From the NCBI GenBank assembly GCA_938082375.1, contig CALKCJ010000019.1, forward strand, positions 1 through 64,000: DNA of 64,000 bases, read 5' to 3'. The notes beneath the pieces were generated by a model. That model saw only the letters and a program-made list of their open reading frames with translations, was not told where the DNA came from and ran no database searches. Shown here in pieces: positions 56,500 through 64,000 of the stretch (the stretch's first letter is position 1; each line of letters opens with the position of its first letter). Source of the DNA: an uncultured Thermomicrobiaceae bacterium. GTDB lineage: Bacteria; Chloroflexota; Chloroflexia; Thermomicrobiales; Thermomicrobiaceae. The translations under genes and the position numbers were made by a program.

Positions 56500-57123
56500 C
56501 TACGCGTGGGCGGGCGCGTGCCAGCGGAACAGGCGACCCGGGCTCCAGGGCGCGCCCAGCGCCGGGAGCAGGTAGCGATCGATACCCCAGTACCCGGCAA
56601 CCTTCCAGGTCAGGACCAGCAGGATGCCCAGCGAGAAGAGCACCGGGTTGGTGCTGGCCGGCACGGCCAGCATGAAGTTCAGGTTCATGATCGCTCCGAA
56701 GAAGGCGGCGATCCCGACAAGCCCGCCGACGATCAGGCCGATGCCGACCAGCAGCTCACCAGCGATCACCAGCCAGGCGAACCAGCCGTACCAGCCCTGA
56801 TCCAGCATGAACTGGATGAAGTCTCGGTACCAGCCGTAGACGATGGGCGGGCGGCCGTTCTCCGGGATGGCGACCGTGCGCTCCCAGAACCCCTTGAGCG
56901 CGCTGCCGCCCTGCGTCCAACCCGGGTCCTCCAGCTTGTGCCAGCCGGCCTCCAGCCACTGGTAGCCGAGGTACAGCCGGACCCCGAGCCAGAGCGGGGC
57001 CGAACGCGTGTGGTTGAACAGCCAGTGGACAGCCTGCGGGTCGCGGATGCCGAGCTGAGCGACATCGGTCGACTCGCCACGGAGAGCCTGGCGGAACGGG
57101 TAGCCTGCGATCAGCGGGATCAC
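56500..57123 (-). CDS. DoxX-family membrane protein
   Basis: A 207-residue protein with four to five hydrophobic helices of the DoxX/DoxD type: WLGVRLYLGYQWLEAGWHKL, then WYGWFAWLVIAGELLVGIGL and FFGAIMNLNFMLAVPAS. DoxD is the small subunit of thiosulfate:quinone oxidoreductase in Acidianus, but most relatives have no known role. About 60 residues precede the first helix. GTG 57123 overlaps the FmdE stop (GTGA) and has GGAG upstream. It is the last gene of the molybdoenzyme operon. A quinone-linked role is inference. Confidence 0.78.
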   Translation of the reverse strand: MIPLIAGYPFRQALRGESTDVAQLGIRDPQAVHWLFNHTRSAPLWLGVRLYLGYQWLEAGWHKLEDPGWTQGGSALKGFWERTVAIPENGRPPIVYGWYRDFIQFMLDQGWYGWFAWLVIAGELLVGIGLIVGGLVGIAAFFGAIMNLNFMLAVPASTNPVLFSLGILLVLTWKVAGYWGIDRYLLPALGAPWSPGRLFRWHAPAHA

Positions 57124-57827
57124 CCTCGACTCCAGCTCTCGCTTGTCTCTGCTTCTACCCTCGGCAAGGAGAGCTGAGAGGGGAATCTCTGGGGAGGCCG
57201 GTTCCCTTCGACGCCTAGGGTAGCGAGCGTCTCGATCGATTGGGCGGGATTGTCGTAGGGGCATGCGTAATATGCTTCTCCGGCGCAGGCGCTACAGAGT
57301 ATCACACCATCACGCACTACCTCGCGTTCGTTGAGGATCTCTTCGCCACAGAGCTGACATTCCACGCGATGTCCGCTCGTACTGATGAATCTCTCCAGAG
57401 AGAACAAGAGCTGGACATCCTGTATCGTCAGGAGTTCGTCGTCGGGCATCCGTTGGTAACCGAGAAGCTGGGCCTGCCATCGGTCGTCGGCTTCGGGAGC
57501 ATAGGCGCGGGCACGCTGCCGCACGTTGCTGCCGGGAGCCACTCGCACCGCCCGTCCTGTCCAGGTATCGACGAAGGTGGCCGCGACTTTGCCGTAATCG
57601 ATAACTCGCAGTGTTCGACGGCCAACCTGGCAACCCGTGGCGGCAGAAATGCCATCGGCGAAGCACCCATCGGTCTCGACGAAGACCAGGAGGCGCTTGT
57701 CCCGACGAGGGACGTCCAACTCCAAGGCTCTACCTGCAGCGAGACCCATGCGCACGCCCAGGACTTGCCTGGGGCAAAGCCGCTCATGGTTGGCTGCTGA
57801 GATGGCGAGGAGGTCATCGAGTCGCAT
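57120..57827 (-). CDS. FmdE family protein with zinc ribbon
   Basis: A 235-residue FmdE-family protein, named after a protein co-purified with methanogen formylmethanofuran dehydrogenase, a molybdenum or tungsten enzyme. The core is LCPRQVLGVRMGLAAG, DGCFADGISAATGCQVG and RTLRVIDYGKVAATFVD. The C-terminus has a zinc-ribbon, CQLCGEE with CSACAG. In bacteria such genes lie near molybdoenzymes and may aid cofactor insertion or metal handling; that is not proven. GGAGGGAC precedes the ATG. Its start lies 14 bases inside the 3' end of the ferredoxin-fusion gene. Confidence 0.82.
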   Translation of the reverse strand: MRLDDLLAISAANHERLCPRQVLGVRMGLAAGRALELDVPRRDKRLLVFVETDGCFADGISAATGCQVGRRTLRVIDYGKVAATFVDTWTGRAVRVAPGSNVRQRARAYAPEADDRWQAQLLGYQRMPDDELLTIQDVQLLFSLERFISTSGHRVECQLCGEEILNEREVVRDGVILCSACAGEAYYACPYDNPAQSIETLATLGVEGNRPPQRFPSQLSLPRVEAETSESWSRG

Positions 57828-59484
57828 GACGTGTCCCTCCCTCTGAACTGCCGGCCATCACCCGGCAGGAAGTGCAGTACCGGGAGAGTGTGCTCTGCAG
57901 GCCAGGCGGTTCGTCCGCCAGCAGGGCCATGATCCGATCGAGCATGCGACCGGATGCGATCGGCGCACCGCATCGGGCACAGCGCGCGACGAGGTCTCGG
58001 GTTACGACCTGTCCCCCTGAGCGCAGGCGCTCCCAGGCGATGGCCCGCTGAACTCGGATCGCGCCTCGGGCCCGCTCTGGGCAGATCGAGAGGCACTGCC
58101 CGCATGCGATGCAGGAGGAGGCCTCGAAGCGGAGCAGCGACTGCTCCGCCGTCGTTTCGAACTGGAGAGCACCGGTGGGGCAGGCATCAGCGCACAGGCC
58201 ACAGACGGTACAGGTCGTCTCGTCGATCTCGACGAGACCCAGCGGGGCGGCAGGGTGACGAAAGACGGAGGCGTCGCCCGCAAGGGGCGTCCACTCGTCT
58301 CGGCTGTAGCGCCGCGCCAGGTCGAGCAGCACAGCGGCAACGGCTCTGGGCTGGACGCTGAACGCTGGTTGTGGTAACCTGTCTTCCAGCTCCGTAAGAC
58401 CGATGCTGCTCCCTCGATCTGCTGGCGGGCGATCGATCGCTGGGCGGTACTGAATCAAGTCAGCTGGCGCGCCGATCGCTTCCAGGAAATCCTGGCAAAA
58501 CTGGACATGCTCTCGGACTACCTCGGTCAGAGTTCCGTGGCAGTCATCGGAGCACGGGAGTACCCCAACAGCGCTGGCCCCGAGTCCGAGCGGAACGAGG
58601 TACCAGGTCGGCGGCGCCATTGCCAGACAGGGTAACCTGAGCGGCATCCAGCCGGGATGCAGTGACTCTGGCGCGACCGAACTGTGAGCACGCATGTGAG
58701 CACACATGAACAGGATGCCGCGCGGCTGCAGAGTGCCAATGCGCGGATCCAGGAGTGCGCGCACCTGAGCGTCGATTTGCGAGGCTGTGTACCCTGGGAA
58801 CAAGACCGCCTCGCGTGGGCAGACGGTCACGCAGCGGCTGCATGACCGACACCGTGCCTTGTCGAGCCTGATGACCCCGTTCTTCGACTCCAGCGCCCCA
58901 TAGGGACAGGCGTGGACACAGAGCGTGCACCCTCGCTCGGCGACACACCGATCTCGCGAGATCGAGGGAACGACCTCGTACGTGAGGAGCGGCAACCGGA
59001 GCAGACTGCGGCGGCTGAACCGCGTAGGCAGGCGAGGCTTCACGTTCTCGACACTGCTCCCGAAGTACGCTCGTGCCTTCGCCACCGCCGCGGCCAGAAG
59101 GATCTGCGCCTTGCCGGTCGCCAGCTCGGGCGAGCTCAGTCGTGCGCACGACCATCCGAGGTCGACGGTTTCCAGGCCCACCGGATCCAAGCCTGCCTGG
59201 CGGAGCTGCGTATCGATCGCGCCAACCTCGTACTGCGATCGGCACAGTCCCAGCACCACACGGCAAGCGCCTGTTTCCGCGAGGATGTCGGGCAGGTCCT
59301 GAGGCCTCGTACAGAGCCGCGGCAGGATGTGAACCACGACATCAGGATCGTGCTCCGCGAACCAACGAAGGAGTTCGGGGAGGTCCAGTTGGCTTCCGGC
59401 ACTCGCCAGGTGGTCGCAGAGCAGGACGGCGACCCGTACCGACCCGTTCACCGATGTGCCGTGGTCGAGCCATTGAGTGCTCAT
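57814..59484 (-). CDS. HdrA_N-ferredoxin-MvhD-ferredoxin-zinc ribbon fusion protein
   Basis: A 556-residue iron-sulfur protein without membrane helices. Residues about 15-150 resemble the start of HdrA (LPRLCTRPQDLPDIL, CRVVLGLCRSQYE, an AGLDPVGLETVDL stretch and WSCARL). Then come a 2[4Fe-4S] segment (Cys at 180-222), an MvhD-like domain (about 255-335, with FMCAHMR, LRLPCLAMAPPTW and GVLPCSDDCH), a second 2[4Fe-4S] segment (425-468) and a terminal Cys4 ribbon (CARC and CTSC, 502-540). HdrA's flavin domain is absent. MvhD passes electrons between hydrogenase and heterodisulfide reductase. Here the protein may link a soluble donor to the molybdoenzyme. The ATG overlaps the TorD stop (ATGA). 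Confidence 0.8.
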   Translation of the reverse strand: MSTQWLDHGTSVNGSVRVAVLLCDHLASAGSQLDLPELLRWFAEHDPDVVVHILPRLCTRPQDLPDILAETGACRVVLGLCRSQYEVGAIDTQLRQAGLDPVGLETVDLGWSCARLSSPELATGKAQILLAAAVAKARAYFGSSVENVKPRLPTRFSRRSLLRLPLLTYEVVPSISRDRCVAERGCTLCVHACPYGALESKNGVIRLDKARCRSCSRCVTVCPREAVLFPGYTASQIDAQVRALLDPRIGTLQPRGILFMCAHMRAHSSVAPESLHPGWMPLRLPCLAMAPPTWYLVPLGLGASAVGVLPCSDDCHGTLTEVVREHVQFCQDFLEAIGAPADLIQYRPAIDRPPADRGSSIGLTELEDRLPQPAFSVQPRAVAAVLLDLARRYSRDEWTPLAGDASVFRHPAAPLGLVEIDETTCTVCGLCADACPTGALQFETTAEQSLLRFEASSCIACGQCLSICPERARGAIRVQRAIAWERLRSGGQVVTRDLVARCARCGAPIASGRMLDRIMALLADEPPGLQSTLSRYCTSCRVMAGSSEGGTRHATR

Positions 59485-60239
59485 CGGTGCACCTCGTCGA
59501 TGGTGTCAAGCAGCAGGGCGAGCAGGTCGAGGTCATGCCGAACGAGTGTGTCACAGGCGACGGCCGCAGCCGTATAGACGCCGGTGGTGTCGTAGAGCAC
59601 GAGCTGGTTGGCGAACAGCGGTAGCCACGAGCCGAGGAACCGCTCGATGAAGCGTCGCTCCCGTCGAAGCACCCGCCGCAGCGCAGTGACAGGGGCGAAC
59701 TCCCATGCTTCTGCTTCCCGCTCGCACAGCACCGCCGTGTATTCGAGTTCGACTGCGAGATGGTCAGGGGGTTCGTGGAGCGACGGTGAGAGCTCGACGC
59801 CCCCTGCGCGGTACTCGCGCTCGAGCAGGAGTGGGATCCAGCCGGTAGCGCTGCGCTCGGGGTCGAGGTAGCAGGATGCGTAGAGTGGGCAACTCGGCCG
59901 GCCACTAGGCCCGACGATGAAGAGCGCGACATAGGCGGTCGCCAGTTCCCCTGCGCTCGGCGGATCCTCTGTGGTCAGCCGGTCGAGTAACCGCCGCCAG
60001 GGCAGGTACCAGTGGAATCCTGCCAGCGTCTCCTGCTCGGCGCGCAGGGCCTGAGCAGCCTCCAGGAGCTGCGCGTGCCGATCCTCCTGCGGGGGCAGGA
60101 AAACGGCTCCCAGGAAGCGATACAACGCTCGACGAAGCCGGGCCAGGTTGGCGAGTTCGGGCGCGTGCTGAGGAGGCGGCCCTGCGGGCGCCTCCTGGCC
60201 TGAGTTGCGCAGCTCACGGATGTGACCAGTCGCCATCAT
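59481..60239 (-). CDS. TorD-family molybdoenzyme chaperone
   Basis: A 252-residue helical protein of the TorD/DmsD/NarJ family, which holds the molybdoenzyme apoprotein until cofactor is loaded and guides it to Tat export. Family traits are the early LANLARLRRALYRFLGAVFL helix, the TAYVALFIVGPSGRPSCPLYAS loop region (compare the E-Y-x-x-L-F pattern) and a DHLAVELEYTAVL motif. ATG 60239 overlaps the stop of the small membrane protein. The partner is presumably the catalytic subunit at 62697 onward. Confidence 0.82.
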   Translation of the reverse strand: MMATGHIRELRNSGQEAPAGPPPQHAPELANLARLRRALYRFLGAVFLPPQEDRHAQLLEAAQALRAEQETLAGFHWYLPWRRLLDRLTTEDPPSAGELATAYVALFIVGPSGRPSCPLYASCYLDPERSATGWIPLLLEREYRAGGVELSPSLHEPPDHLAVELEYTAVLCEREAEAWEFAPVTALRRVLRRERRFIERFLGSWLPLFANQLVLYDTTGVYTAAAVACDTLVRHDLDLLALLLDTIDEVHR

Positions 60240-60451
60240 TGAGCTTGCCTGTCCGGTAGGAGCTCGTAGACGACGGCGGCGAGGAAGACCAGCATGACCC
60301 CCAGGATGAACAGAGCCGGAGCAAAGGGTACTCGGGGGTTGCTGTAGACTGGACTTGATGGGATGCCCCAGGGAGCGGCCAAGAAGAAGTAGCTCACAGC
60401 CTGTAGGGCGAAGCCGACGATGACCATCAGGATCGCGAGCGTCGCGCGCAT
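60236..60451 (-). CDS. Small two-helix membrane protein
   Basis: A 71-residue protein with two hydrophobic helices: MRATLAILMVIVGFALQAVS and, after a polar loop (WGIPSSPVYSNPRVPFAP), ALFILGVMLVFLAAVVYEL. I recognise no family. Its start overlaps the NrfD stop by one base (TGATG), and its stop overlaps the TorD start (ATGA), so it is firmly part of the operon. It may be an accessory or assembly subunit of the membrane complex. Confidence 0.7.
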   Translation of the reverse strand: MRATLAILMVIVGFALQAVSYFFLAAPWGIPSSPVYSNPRVPFAPALFILGVMLVFLAAVVYELLPDRQAQ

Positions 60452-61941
60452 CACTGAGCTCCTTCCTCCGCGGCATGGACTTCCATAATTGGGAAGACCT
60501 TGAAGAACAAGGTGTACAGCAGGGTGCCCAGAGCGAAGAGGCCGATGACGATACTGACCTCGACCCAGGTCGGGGTATACGTTCCGTCCCCGTAGGGTAG
60601 CAGCGTGCCGTGTGTCTGGGACGGCACGACGATGAGCAGCCGCTTGCCGATGGCTGCCACGTTGACCAGGATCCCTGCGGTGGCCGCGGCGGCTACGACG
60701 TTTCGGCTCAGGTGCGGCAGGAGCAGCAGGAAGCAGAGGAGCGCCAGGGCGACGGCCAGCCAGGCAAGCAGAGACCGTGCCCCCGCCGAGAGCACGGTCA
60801 GCAGGTTCAAGCCCTGAAGCGCTACCAGGCTGGCTGGCACCAGCGCCGCGGCGCCGAAGACCAGAGCCCAGCGCGGCCGGGTTGCCGGCACGCGTGCGCG
60901 CAGTCCAGGGGGCAGGTACGGGAGGAGAAGCACGATCACCGCGAGGACGAGCGCGGCCACCGCACCCCAAAAGAGCCAGGCGAACTGGCCGGTTAAGAGG
61001 CTGAGCGAGATCCGAACCTCGTGGTGGTGTCCGGCATAGGTGGTTGTCAGCACCTCGACGACCATGAAGTACAGGTAGGCGAGGATCAGCAACAAGAGTA
61101 GGGTGCCGAGCCAGCGGAAGATCCCCTCGTGCAACTGCTCTCGCTCAGCGAGCACGACCCGCATGACGGCGGCGATCACGAGCAAGAGCCCGATCCCCGA
61201 GACCCCGGCCATCACTACGAAGCCGGGGGCTTGCAGCGTGCTGAACCAGCCCGGGCGGCCTGACTGGATGCCGAAGACGAACCCCAGCGTCGAATGTGCG
61301 GTCACGAGCAAGGGGACGATGGCGATGGCGAGCCAGAAGCTGACTCGCTCGTGGCGGGTTCGCTCAGCCGGGGTGTCGCGGTAGCCGGCTGCCCAGAGGC
61401 GATAGAAGCCGCGCAGCGGGCCCGGTTGCCGGGCGAGGAGCGCGGCGTCCCGCCGGCCGTCGAGGTAGAGGTAGATCAGGCTGGCGAAGAGATAGCCGGA
61501 GATCACTAGAGTGAAGGTTCCAAAGAACGGCGACTGGGGACGGGCATAACGGAACAAGTTGATGACTCCCCGGAGGGGTTGACCGAGATCGAGCAAGATG
61601 GTAAACGCCGCGAGGACCAAGGCGATAACGGTCAGTGCCTCGGCCATTCGTGACAGGGGCCGGAGGTGATCCAAGCGAAAGAGCCGGATCAGTGCTGCCA
61701 TCGTGATCCCGGCGAAGCTCACGCCGACGAAGTAGATCACAAAGCTGACGTAGAGTCCCCAAGTTGCTCCGCCCATCGTGCCGATATTGCGGAGCCCAGT
61801 CATGGCGAGGCCTTCCACGAACTCGCGTGAATAGGCGAAGATGCCCCACCCGACGAGGACGAGGAGCACGGCGAGCAGAAGGTACAACCGGGTCGAGAAG
61901 CGGCCGATACCGTACGGGAGCTGTTCCACGCGCGTAGCCAT
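60451..61941 (-). CDS. NrfD/PsrC-type membrane subunit
   Basis: A 496-residue integral membrane protein with about ten helices, the quinone-interacting anchor of complex iron-sulfur molybdoenzymes. Family markers include WGLYVSFVIYFVGVSFAGIT early, then LDLGQPLRGVINLFRYARPQ, HSTLGFVFGIQSGRPGWFST and a long helical C-terminal half. It is longer than PsrC (about 250) and resembles the longer NrfD-like HybB/DmsC group. ATG 61941 has GCGAGG upstream and lies 2 bases after the ferredoxin subunit gene. Confidence 0.85.
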   Translation of the reverse strand: MATRVEQLPYGIGRFSTRLYLLLAVLLVLVGWGIFAYSREFVEGLAMTGLRNIGTMGGATWGLYVSFVIYFVGVSFAGITMAALIRLFRLDHLRPLSRMAEALTVIALVLAAFTILLDLGQPLRGVINLFRYARPQSPFFGTFTLVISGYLFASLIYLYLDGRRDAALLARQPGPLRGFYRLWAAGYRDTPAERTRHERVSFWLAIAIVPLLVTAHSTLGFVFGIQSGRPGWFSTLQAPGFVVMAGVSGIGLLLVIAAVMRVVLAEREQLHEGIFRWLGTLLLLLILAYLYFMVVEVLTTTYAGHHHEVRISLSLLTGQFAWLFWGAVAALVLAVIVLLLPYLPPGLRARVPATRPRWALVFGAAALVPASLVALQGLNLLTVLSAGARSLLAWLAVALALLCFLLLLPHLSRNVVAAAATAGILVNVAAIGKRLLIVVPSQTHGTLLPYGDGTYTPTWVEVSIVIGLFALGTLLYTLFFKVFPIMEVHAAEEGAQ

Positions 61942-61943
61942 GG

Positions 61944-62681
61944 CTACACCCTCGCTTTCACCTCTTCGATCTGGCGCGACTCGGTGCTCGGCGGGTGCCC
62001 ACCGATGTAGTACACCCGTGGCTCGGTGCCCAGCTCCTCGAGGAGCCTGAACGAGGGCTTGCGGCGCAGGAGCTGCGCGACCGTGCTGTTCGGATCGTCG
62101 AGGTCGCCGAAATGGAGGGCGAAGAGCGGGCAGTTCTCGACGCAGGCTGGCTTGAGTCCTCGCTCGACCCGGTGGACGCAGAAGGTGCACTTCTCGATCA
62201 CGCCCTTGAGGCGTCCGCCGCCGGCCGTTCGCCGGTGTTCCTCACCGTAGGGCGCGTCGAGGTCGGGGTTTCGATAGGGTGGCACGGCCCCGCCGGTCAC
62301 CTGGACAACGTCCTCATCTTGCCAGTCCAGGTAGTAATTCTTAGACGGCTTTTTCCAGTTGAAGTAGTTGACGCCGTAGGGACAGGCGACCTCGCAGTAC
62401 CGGCAGCCGATGCACCGATCCCAGTCGGTGGCGACCAGTCCGTCCACTCGCTTGTAGCGGGCACCGACCGGGCACACCTTGGCGCAGGGGGCGTTGTCGC
62501 AGTGCATACATGGCCGGGGCATGAACCAGACATGGGTATTGGGATACTCCCCCTCTTCGAACCGGAAGACGTACATCCAGAAGTTGGCCATCGGCGTGTT
62601 GTTCTCCACCTTGCACGCCTGCATGCAGGCGCGGCAGCCGGTGCAGCGATCGAGGTCGATGACCATCGCGTAGCGAGCCAT
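61944..62681 (-). CDS. 4Fe-4S dicluster electron-transfer subunit (PsrB/DmsB type)
   Basis: A 245-residue ferredoxin with four Cys motifs for four [4Fe-4S] clusters: CTGCRACMQACKVEN, PCMHCDNAPCAKVCPVGA, CIGCRYCEVACPYGV and the later KCTFCVHRVERGLKPACVENC. It passes electrons between the molybdopterin subunit and the NrfD anchor. GGAGGGAGCGCGGT precedes the ATG. The C-terminal region after the last cluster (LRRKPSFRLLEELGTEPRV) is the normal DmsB-like tail. Confidence 0.92.
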   Translation of the reverse strand: MARYAMVIDLDRCTGCRACMQACKVENNTPMANFWMYVFRFEEGEYPNTHVWFMPRPCMHCDNAPCAKVCPVGARYKRVDGLVATDWDRCIGCRYCEVACPYGVNYFNWKKPSKNYYLDWQDEDVVQVTGGAVPPYRNPDLDAPYGEEHRRTAGGGRLKGVIEKCTFCVHRVERGLKPACVENCPLFALHFGDLDDPNSTVAQLLRRKPSFRLLEELGTEPRVYYIGGHPPSTESRQIEEVKARV

Positions 62682-62696: not shown

Positions 62697-64000
62697 CTAC
62701 TTGTAGACCCGTACCTTCACATGGAAGGACTGGTCGGCGGTATTGGCGACGTAGCCTTCGCCGGTAAAGAAGACGCTGTTGGGTGTGGGGCCCTGCCCAA
62801 CCGTCCAGGGATGCCGGATAGCCTCGCCGTAGTGGTGGGGCATCCCGACGGTGTCAGGCCGGATGCCCTCCCGGTACCGGGCGATCGTCCGCACTCGGCG
62901 CGTCTCACCGGTGACCGCATTGTGCGACTCGACCCAGACCTCGTCGCCGTCCTGAATCCCGCGCTCCTCCGCAGTGCGCGGGTTGATATCGATCCCCGCT
63001 TTGGGAGCCAACTCGGCCAGGAGGGGAATCTGCGAGGAGCGCGATTGCTTGAACTCGATCAGCTTGTAGCTGATCAGGTAGAGGTCGTACTCGGGCGGCG
63101 ACTCCTCCATGGTGGGCTTGCGCCAGGTCGGGAAAGGCGTGTAGTCGCGCCAGTAGGTCTCGGCGACACCCCGCTGGCGCATCTCCTCACGGTAGCGTCG
63201 CAGCGACTCGCCATACAGGCGGTGGCGGACGCCACCGAACGGCGGGTCGGTGACGTAGCCGTAGAGCTTGGTCGCGGGGATCGGCTGGGCGACCGTGACC
63301 CCGTTCTTCTCGAAATACGCGACGCCGTCCGCGATGCCTGCTGAGCGGGCCCAGCGGTCGAAGATCTCCCGTACCGTCGGCTTGCGATCCAGCGGGAGCT
63401 TGTGCTCATCCTTCAGCTTCAACGCCTCATTCAGGTGGTGGAGGTAGCCGCCCTCGCCGTACAGGATCCCGGCTTTCTCGCACAGGTCGAGGTAGATCTC
63501 GATGTCTCCCCGGCTCTGGAAGAGCGGCGGCATCACCGGCACGCGCAGTGCGGTCGCCTCGAGATACTGGTCGGTGGCGGACACCGGCCCTTCGTACTTC
63601 TCGAGAGTGGCTGCTGGGAGCACGACGTCGGCGAACAGGTCAGCTGTCTTCGAAAGCCAGGGGTCGATGACGACGACGAACTTGAACTTCTTATAGCCCT
63701 CGATCAGGTCAGGCTCAGAGCCGAACGCCACGAGCGGGTTGCACATGTGGACGATGATGACCTCGGGGACGTAGTCGACCCCGTACTTCTCAGGGTTCTC
63801 CATCACCTTGGCGACGATTGCAGAGCTATTGCTGTTGATCGGGAAGAAGACAGAATCCTTGAGATAGACATTGTATGGCGGATCCTTGATCTGGACTTTA
63901 TCCAGCTTCTCGAAGTTTTCGTGGATCTTCCAGGGGCCGAGGTCGATTCGCTGGCCGCCGGCGGCACCGATCGCACCAAGGAGCATCGTAATCAGCAGCA
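62697..64000 (-). CDS. Molybdopterin oxidoreductase catalytic subunit (C-terminal part)
   Basis: The last 433 or so codons of a DMSO-reductase-family catalytic subunit; the frame runs off the right edge, so the Tat signal, the iron-sulfur site and the molybdenum ligand are not seen. Visible are the CNPLVAFGSEPDLIEGYKKF domain, DLFADVVLPAATLEKYEGPV, the fourth-domain INPRTAEERGIQDGDEVWVE and RPDTVGMPHHYGEA. The overall pattern is closest to polysulfide, thiosulfate or tetrathionate-type reductases (PsrA/PhsA/TtrA). The substrate cannot be decided from this part. It is upstream of its ferredoxin and NrfD partners. Confidence 0.85.
   Translation of the reverse strand, partial: LLITMLLGAIGAAGGQRIDLGPWKIHENFEKLDKVQIKDPPYNVYLKDSVFFPINSNSSAIVAKVMENPEKYGVDYVPEVIIVHMCNPLVAFGSEPDLIEGYKKFKFVVVIDPWLSKTADLFADVVLPAATLEKYEGPVSATDQYLEATALRVPVMPPLFQSRGDIEIYLDLCEKAGILYGEGGYLHHLNEALKLKDEHKLPLDRKPTVREIFDRWARSAGIADGVAYFEKNGVTVAQPIPATKLYGYVTDPPFGGVRHRLYGESLRRYREEMRQRGVAETYWRDYTPFPTWRKPTMEESPPEYDLYLISYKLIEFKQSRSSQIPLLAELAPKAGIDINPRTAEERGIQDGDEVWVESHNAVTGETRRVRTIARYREGIRPDTVGMPHHYGEAIRHPWTVGQGPTPNSVFFTGEGYVANTADQSFHVKVRVYK

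Follow-up and report, generated by a model that had tools for sequence, protein, structure and literature searches.

A fusion of HdrA-like, MvhD-like and HycF-like modules encoded with a Tat-exported molybdopterin enzyme in Thermomicrobiaceae and other Chloroflexota

Introduction

Domain definitions of HdrA have been published (PMC9012536 and PMC12054007). One ligand of its N-terminal cluster, Cys197, is contributed by the FAD domain of the other copy (PMC9012536). HdrA2, the type Ia HdrA with a C-terminal MvhD domain, consists of an N-terminal domain, an FAD/thioredoxin-reductase domain, an inserted ferredoxin domain, a C-terminal 2[4Fe-4S] domain and MvhD. MvhD (FlpD) occurs free-standing or fused to HdrA, and its partner is a hydrogenase or a formate dehydrogenase. 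HycF, subunit 6 of formate hydrogenlyase, is a module of two [4Fe-4S] clusters and a C4 zinc ribbon within a membrane hydrogenase complex.

Two other systems are relevant to exported molybdoenzymes. NapF is a cytoplasmic protein with four [4Fe-4S] clusters that is required for cluster assembly in NapA of R. sphaeroides (PMC10609526). Most quinone sites of NrfD proteins lie at the interface with PsrB and are directed towards the positive side (PMC13059093). Unnamed ferredoxins have also been noted in TorD-Fdh operons (PMC4464133).

Here we describe a 556-residue iron-sulfur protein that combines such modules in a single chain. It is encoded in the window, which is the whole stretch of 64,000 nucleotides that was analysed. 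Every module is known already, and the combination is genuine and unusual. No description of the protein was found in the open-access papers searched.

Results

Modules of the fusion protein

The features of the fusion protein are as follows.

57814 to 59484, minus strand: fusion protein of 556 residues, with HdrA N-terminal, 2[4Fe-4S], MvhD and HycF-like modules in this order; open from ATG to stop, assigned by profile and model
59050 to 59442, minus strand: HdrA N-terminal domain, residues about 15 to 145, with Cys23, Cys58 and Cys81; family profile matched to 5odc_A 3-132, domain E 7.5e-13
58780 to 58974, minus strand: first 2[4Fe-4S] domain, of the HdrA C-terminal type, residues about 171 to 235; Pfam, NCBIfam, family profile and cysteines
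58447 to 58722, minus strand: MvhD/FlpD domain, residues about 255 to 346, with Cys261, Cys286, Cys311 and Cys315; Pfam, family profile and structure match
57850 to 58251, minus strand: HycF-like module made of the second 2[4Fe-4S] domain (residues about 412 to 480) and a zinc ribbon (Cys502, Cys505, Cys537, Cys540); profile and structure match

The initial annotation had proposed an unusual domain order in one 556-residue iron-sulfur chain. Profile and structure searches confirmed it module by module, and the HdrA N-terminal, MvhD and 4Fe-4S domains were all found. In the single-sequence Pfam scan, four Fer4 motifs appeared, arranged as two pairs. A family profile of 13 homologues (A3) was then compared with PDB sequences. 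The first dicluster and the linker before it matched the C-terminal domain of HdrA (8rvu_a 566-655, 2.3e-14). With NCBIfam and the single sequence, residues 172-338 matched positions 571-738 of the HdrA2 model collinearly (E 7e-23), and the score of 80.6 bits compares with a cut-off of 1100. The match of residues about 412-545 was to HycF of E. coli formate hydrogenlyase and took in the zinc ribbon (7z0s_F, 7.5e-14). The two further clusters and the zinc ribbon of the annotation are thus present, and they form one HycF-like module rather than separate parts. HycF itself is that module alone.

The MvhD domain was marginal in the single-protein scan, with 20.6 bits for FlpD/MvhD (PF02662) against a Pfam cut-off of 22.3. 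The same site reached 22.8 bits in the whole-genome search, and two family members are clearly above the cut-off (40.5 and 43.6 bits). The family profile matched 9sfi_K (4e-9) and 5odc_D (1e-7). The four MvhD-like cysteines named in the annotation are all in place, and from this pattern a [2Fe-2S] site is predicted. The other cofactors are likewise predicted from cysteine patterns.

An AlphaFold2 model built from nine sequences (pLDDT 80, pTM 0.81) matched HdrA, HycF and MvhD chains in Foldseek and VIA. HdrA chains were found with 6e-11 in Foldseek and with Z 14-15 in VIA, where 150 residues superimposed at 2.5 Å on 7bkd_A (Z 14.9). The HycF fold was matched by 7z0t_F with TMt 0.78 in Foldseek, and with Z 13.8 and 2.2 Å over 127 residues in VIA. 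The MvhD fold was matched by 5odc_D in Foldseek (E 1.5e-3, TMt 0.56), though the VIA list held no separate MvhD match. The TM value over the entire chain was low, as expected for a rearranged multidomain protein. Neither a signal peptide nor a membrane span was evident, and the protein is probably cytoplasmic. A Tat or NapF meaning was weighed for the SRRxxL stretch that precedes the first cluster, and was rejected, as the stretch has an internal position and lines up with the linker of HdrA.

Absence of the flavin domain

The annotation had also stated that the FAD domain used by HdrA for bifurcation is missing, and two results bear this out. Pfam found no such domain. Furthermore, the comparison of the family profile with the HdrA2-like proteins of Chloroflexota (L011, L019 and L021) gave two matching blocks, about 5-137 and about 150-345, which are 310-345 residues apart in those proteins and adjoin in the fusion family. 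The stretch absent from the fusion family is the FAD and inserted-ferredoxin part of HdrA, and the C-terminal dicluster is joined at the point where HdrA carries the FAD domain. By the published domain definitions the fusion protein is not an HdrA, and it cannot bifurcate as HdrA does. The fourth ligand that HdrA uses for its N-terminal cluster, Cys197, is absent together with the FAD domain that carries it.

As in HdrA2, the N-terminal domain of the fusion protein comes before the C-terminal 2[4Fe-4S] domain, and MvhD comes after it. The differences are the absent FAD/thioredoxin-reductase and inserted ferredoxin domains, the additional HycF-like tail and the setting in an operon of an exported molybdoenzyme, which has Hdr genes next to it at a single locus. 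The simplest history would be an HdrA2-like ancestor, that is an HdrA with fused MvhD, which lost the FAD part and gained the HycF-like tail. In a tree of the dicluster-MvhD region (182 columns), the HdrA2-like and FDH3 groups each formed one clade and the position of the fusion family among them was not resolved. The proposed descent from HdrA2 therefore rests on domain order and not on the tree.

The operon

The genes around the fusion gene are listed below.

57120 to 57827, minus strand: FmdE-family protein that carries a C4 zinc finger and whose ATG falls within the end of the fusion gene (PF02663, 6.5e-28)
59481 to 60476, minus strand: TorD/NarJ-family chaperone reading frame, true start probably internal, its stop overlapping the fusion ATG (PF02613, 1.9e-24)
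60451 to 62190, minus strand: NrfD-type membrane subunit, DsrP-like (PF03916, 4e-24)
61944 to 62681, minus strand: PsrB/DsrO/ArrB-like four-cluster subunit (Pfam and NCBIfam matches)
62697 to 64000, minus strand: Tat-signal molybdopterin catalytic subunit of the Psr/Phs type, running past the window end (whole gene L022:698-3406)

The order on this one strand is catalytic subunit, PsrB/DsrO-like subunit, NrfD, TorD, fusion protein, FmdE, DoxX-family protein and NirK. No heme-bearing membrane subunit is encoded in the window operon. The best solved match of the catalytic subunit is 2vpw_A of T. thermophilus. The N-terminal cluster motif of the catalytic subunit reads C-WIGKQG-C, with Gly at the usual second Cys of CxxCxxxC (L022:698-3406). 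The NirK-type nitrite reductase and the DoxX-family gene lie directly downstream (window:55039-57264), and a metagenome bin of Thermomicrobiaceae, L030, retains this order. A response regulator and a GAF histidine kinase are encoded upstream on the same strand (L022:3427-6123), and an IscA/HesB-type Fe-S assembly reading frame overlaps that of the kinase on the opposite strand.

Distribution and partner

The initial search of the phylum matched 226 genomes, nearly all through Fer4 alone, and only full-length matches were counted. A search of genome contigs with a four-member alignment gave eight loci, all of Chloroflexota or Thermomicrobiaceae. Wherever their contigs extend far enough, the Chloroflexota homologues (L023-L029, L031-L037, L050-L052) lie in an operon of this kind. 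They accompany a Tat-exported molybdopterin enzyme made of catalytic, PsrB/DsrO-like and NrfD subunits, usually directly after TorD. FmdE accompanies the order catalytic-PsrB-NrfD-(TorD)-fusion in several loci. Among 400 Chloroflexota genomes, nine have an orthologue of the catalytic subunit, 11 have the full-length Fe-S protein and eight have both (Fisher p 9.7e-14, with the 400 genomes treated as independent and relatedness ignored). In the ninth genome with the catalytic orthologue, G129, that gene is at a contig end. The presence is patchy even inside the family, as G365, a genome of the same genus, has neither protein.

In three genomes (G270, G139 and G338) the fusion protein is paired with other catalytic families. 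No TorD-family gene was detectable in G270 and G338, where the fusion gene directly follows NrfD. In L037 a distant NrfD type (23% identity; L037:5739-7007) takes the place of the usual one, and the catalytic, PsrB-like and Fe-S proteins stay close to those of the window despite the swap. The partner conserved in the family is a Tat-exported molybdopterin enzyme that has an NrfD subunit and in most cases a TorD chaperone.

Conservation of the ligands

The ligands were compared in 17 Chloroflexota members and five proteobacterial relatives. The 22 sequences share, without exception, the 16 Fer4 cysteines and the four cysteines of the zinc ribbon. Of the 17 Chloroflexota members, 13 have the full set of four MvhD cysteines and four lack one each, and the FDH3 relatives, the five proteobacterial sequences, have none of them. 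The N-terminal Cys23, Cys58 and Cys81 are retained or lost jointly, as expected for one cluster site. All three are lost in L032 and L050; L034 lacks Cys81, in a sequence that is incomplete. In this alignment the FDH3 rows are out of register at the N-terminal cysteines, and alignment A5 was read for them.

Relatives in FDH3 loci

A plasmid tblastn search found genes annotated merely as "4Fe-4S binding protein" in FDH3 formate dehydrogenase loci, for example the alphaproteobacterial WP_224555892.1. Their product is collinear with residues 171-528 of the fusion protein (hhalign 99.9%, E 3.5e-34), and the shared core consists of dicluster, MvhD-like region, dicluster and zinc ribbon. The gene is not among the fdh structural genes; it is found close to TorD and, in several loci, also close to an Mrp/ApbC Fe-S carrier gene. 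Both proteins are thus encoded near TorD and a Tat-exported molybdoenzyme. The FDH3-locus protein (L054:8173-10128, L055-L058) differs in its cysteine-free MvhD region and in an additional region before the first dicluster. Its N-terminal half has a weakly matching HdrA-like start (domain E 0.14), and the roughly 150 residues before the first dicluster look like a shrunken remnant of the HdrA FAD domain, a likeness that is weak. No function for this protein was found in the literature searched.

The shorter relatives L053 and L016 lack the HdrA N-terminal domain and directly follow TorD. L016 lies between TorD and radical SAM genes (L016:74-3287), with two molybdoenzyme operons nearby (L061).

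Hdr and Mvh partners

It had further been suggested that the protein replaces a Hdr-Mvh interface. This idea is not applicable to the window genome, which is 99.97% complete, because no HdrA is recognisable in it apart from a 363-residue reading frame that matches the FAD part, its one FlpD/MvhD domain is that of the fusion protein and the search for a [NiFe]-hydrogenase gave a single short NuoD-like match. A hydrogenase or formate dehydrogenase of the kind with which MvhD works was not found here.

In a distant relative, L052, the gene lies directly between the molybdoenzyme and an HdrA/HdrB/HdrC/MvhD cluster. L052:124-12606 and L059:2788-10710 (G338:C100) are one contiguous cluster, in the order Psr/Qrc-like molybdoenzyme, fusion relative, NarI/HdrD-like membrane fusion, HdrD, HdrA, HdrC, HdrB, HdrA/NfnB-like fusion and MvhD, with further Fe-S and FAD genes. 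It may possibly link Hdr-type bifurcation with an NrfD enzyme.

Discussion

Our preferred reading, held with slightly less than even confidence, is that the fusion protein is a cytoplasmic, non-bifurcating Fe-S relay dedicated to Tat-exported molybdoenzymes of the Psr/Phs type, that it derives from an HdrA2-like protein and that it most likely acts in enzyme assembly. The protein would dock in the cytoplasm to the catalytic subunit, the PsrB subunit or both, while TorD, where present, holds the enzyme. Single electrons, and perhaps clusters, would pass along its 4Fe-4S chain, presumably towards the enzyme, and would complete the insertion of the Fe-S/Mo cofactors before Tat export. A role in assembly is favoured because the gene usually stands after TorD with an overlapping start and, in several loci, ahead of FmdE, and because the short relatives also directly follow TorD. 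Two further points are in its favour: the FDH3 relatives are encoded apart from the structural genes and close to TorD and genes for Fe-S carriers, and the same protein type accompanies different catalytic families and the swapped NrfD. In addition, a protein without signal peptide or membrane span, together with NrfD quinone sites that mostly face the positive side, leaves no known path from the cytoplasm to the exported site.

NapF is a precedent for this proposal. Like the fusion protein, it lacks an export signal, carries four 4Fe-4S motifs and is tied to one Tat-exported molybdoenzyme. However, it is small (149 positions in TIGR00402) and has no HdrA, MvhD or HycF modules, and the fusion protein scored 43.4 bits with this model, below the cut-off of 102.2. 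Operon position is weak evidence of function. The MvhD cysteines, complete in most Chloroflexota members, would seem to exceed the need of an assembly factor. The genomes without detectable TorD and the position of L052 between an enzyme and a full Hdr cluster also speak against such a role.

A close rival is that the protein is a standing cytoplasmic partner of the working enzyme, which we regard as quite possible, if rather doubtful. With a soluble donor or acceptor docked at its MvhD or N-terminal domain, it would shuttle single electrons to or from the membrane side of the NrfD complex, where a second quinone site may be involved. All of its modules originate in electron-transfer chains, and the preserved MvhD ligands, the gene directly after NrfD in G270 and G338 and the neighbouring Hdr genes of L052/L059 are consistent with this function. 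The compact electron adaptor of the initial annotation therefore keeps its support in the L052 lineage. In the window genome it loses ground, as no Hdr or Mvh-type partner is encoded there. The window operon is also without a heme-bearing membrane subunit, the NrfD quinone sites are mostly on the other side, the FDH3 relatives have lost the MvhD ligands and four Chloroflexota members have an incomplete set, and the fusion protein is retained when NrfD is swapped. An extended form of this proposal appears unlikely to us: a flavin-less HdrA would be a direct cytoplasmic gateway to NrfD complexes, passing electrons from soluble low-potential donors, such as the Hdr complex in L052, to Psr-like molybdoenzymes, with the FDH3 protein as its relic.

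That this Fe-S/zinc protein serves the operon in redox sensing or regulation, and takes no part in electron transfer or assembly, is improbable. The zinc ribbon, the zinc finger of the neighbouring FmdE and the upstream two-component system would fit such a function. However, a sensor would not need sixteen invariant Fer4 cysteines, arranged as in ferredoxins, or such long conserved modules of electron transfer; the ribbon belongs to the HycF fold and Pfam found no DNA-binding domain. A plain polyferredoxin with chance likeness to HdrA and MvhD was rejected as having hardly any likelihood, since the FlpD score slightly below the cut-off in the single-protein scan is outweighed by family-profile E-values of 1e-7 to 1e-13 per module, by the structure matches, by FlpD above the cut-off in relatives and by the two-block match to HdrA2-like proteins.

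The fusion protein indicates that the HdrA-MvhD electron chain of methanogens has been reused, without flavin, in bacterial respiration. A function in assembly would extend the NapF role to many molybdoenzymes that are exported; a function as adaptor would mean an uncharted connection of the electron pools of the cytoplasm with NrfD-type complexes. The core of the protein sits unrecognised in proteobacterial FDH3 loci, and relatives exist in genetically tractable bacteria. Among the HdrA-like matches in Chloroflexota, several (G139:C56, G257:C15, G049:C108 and others) contain an in-frame TGA, which possibly encodes selenocysteine.
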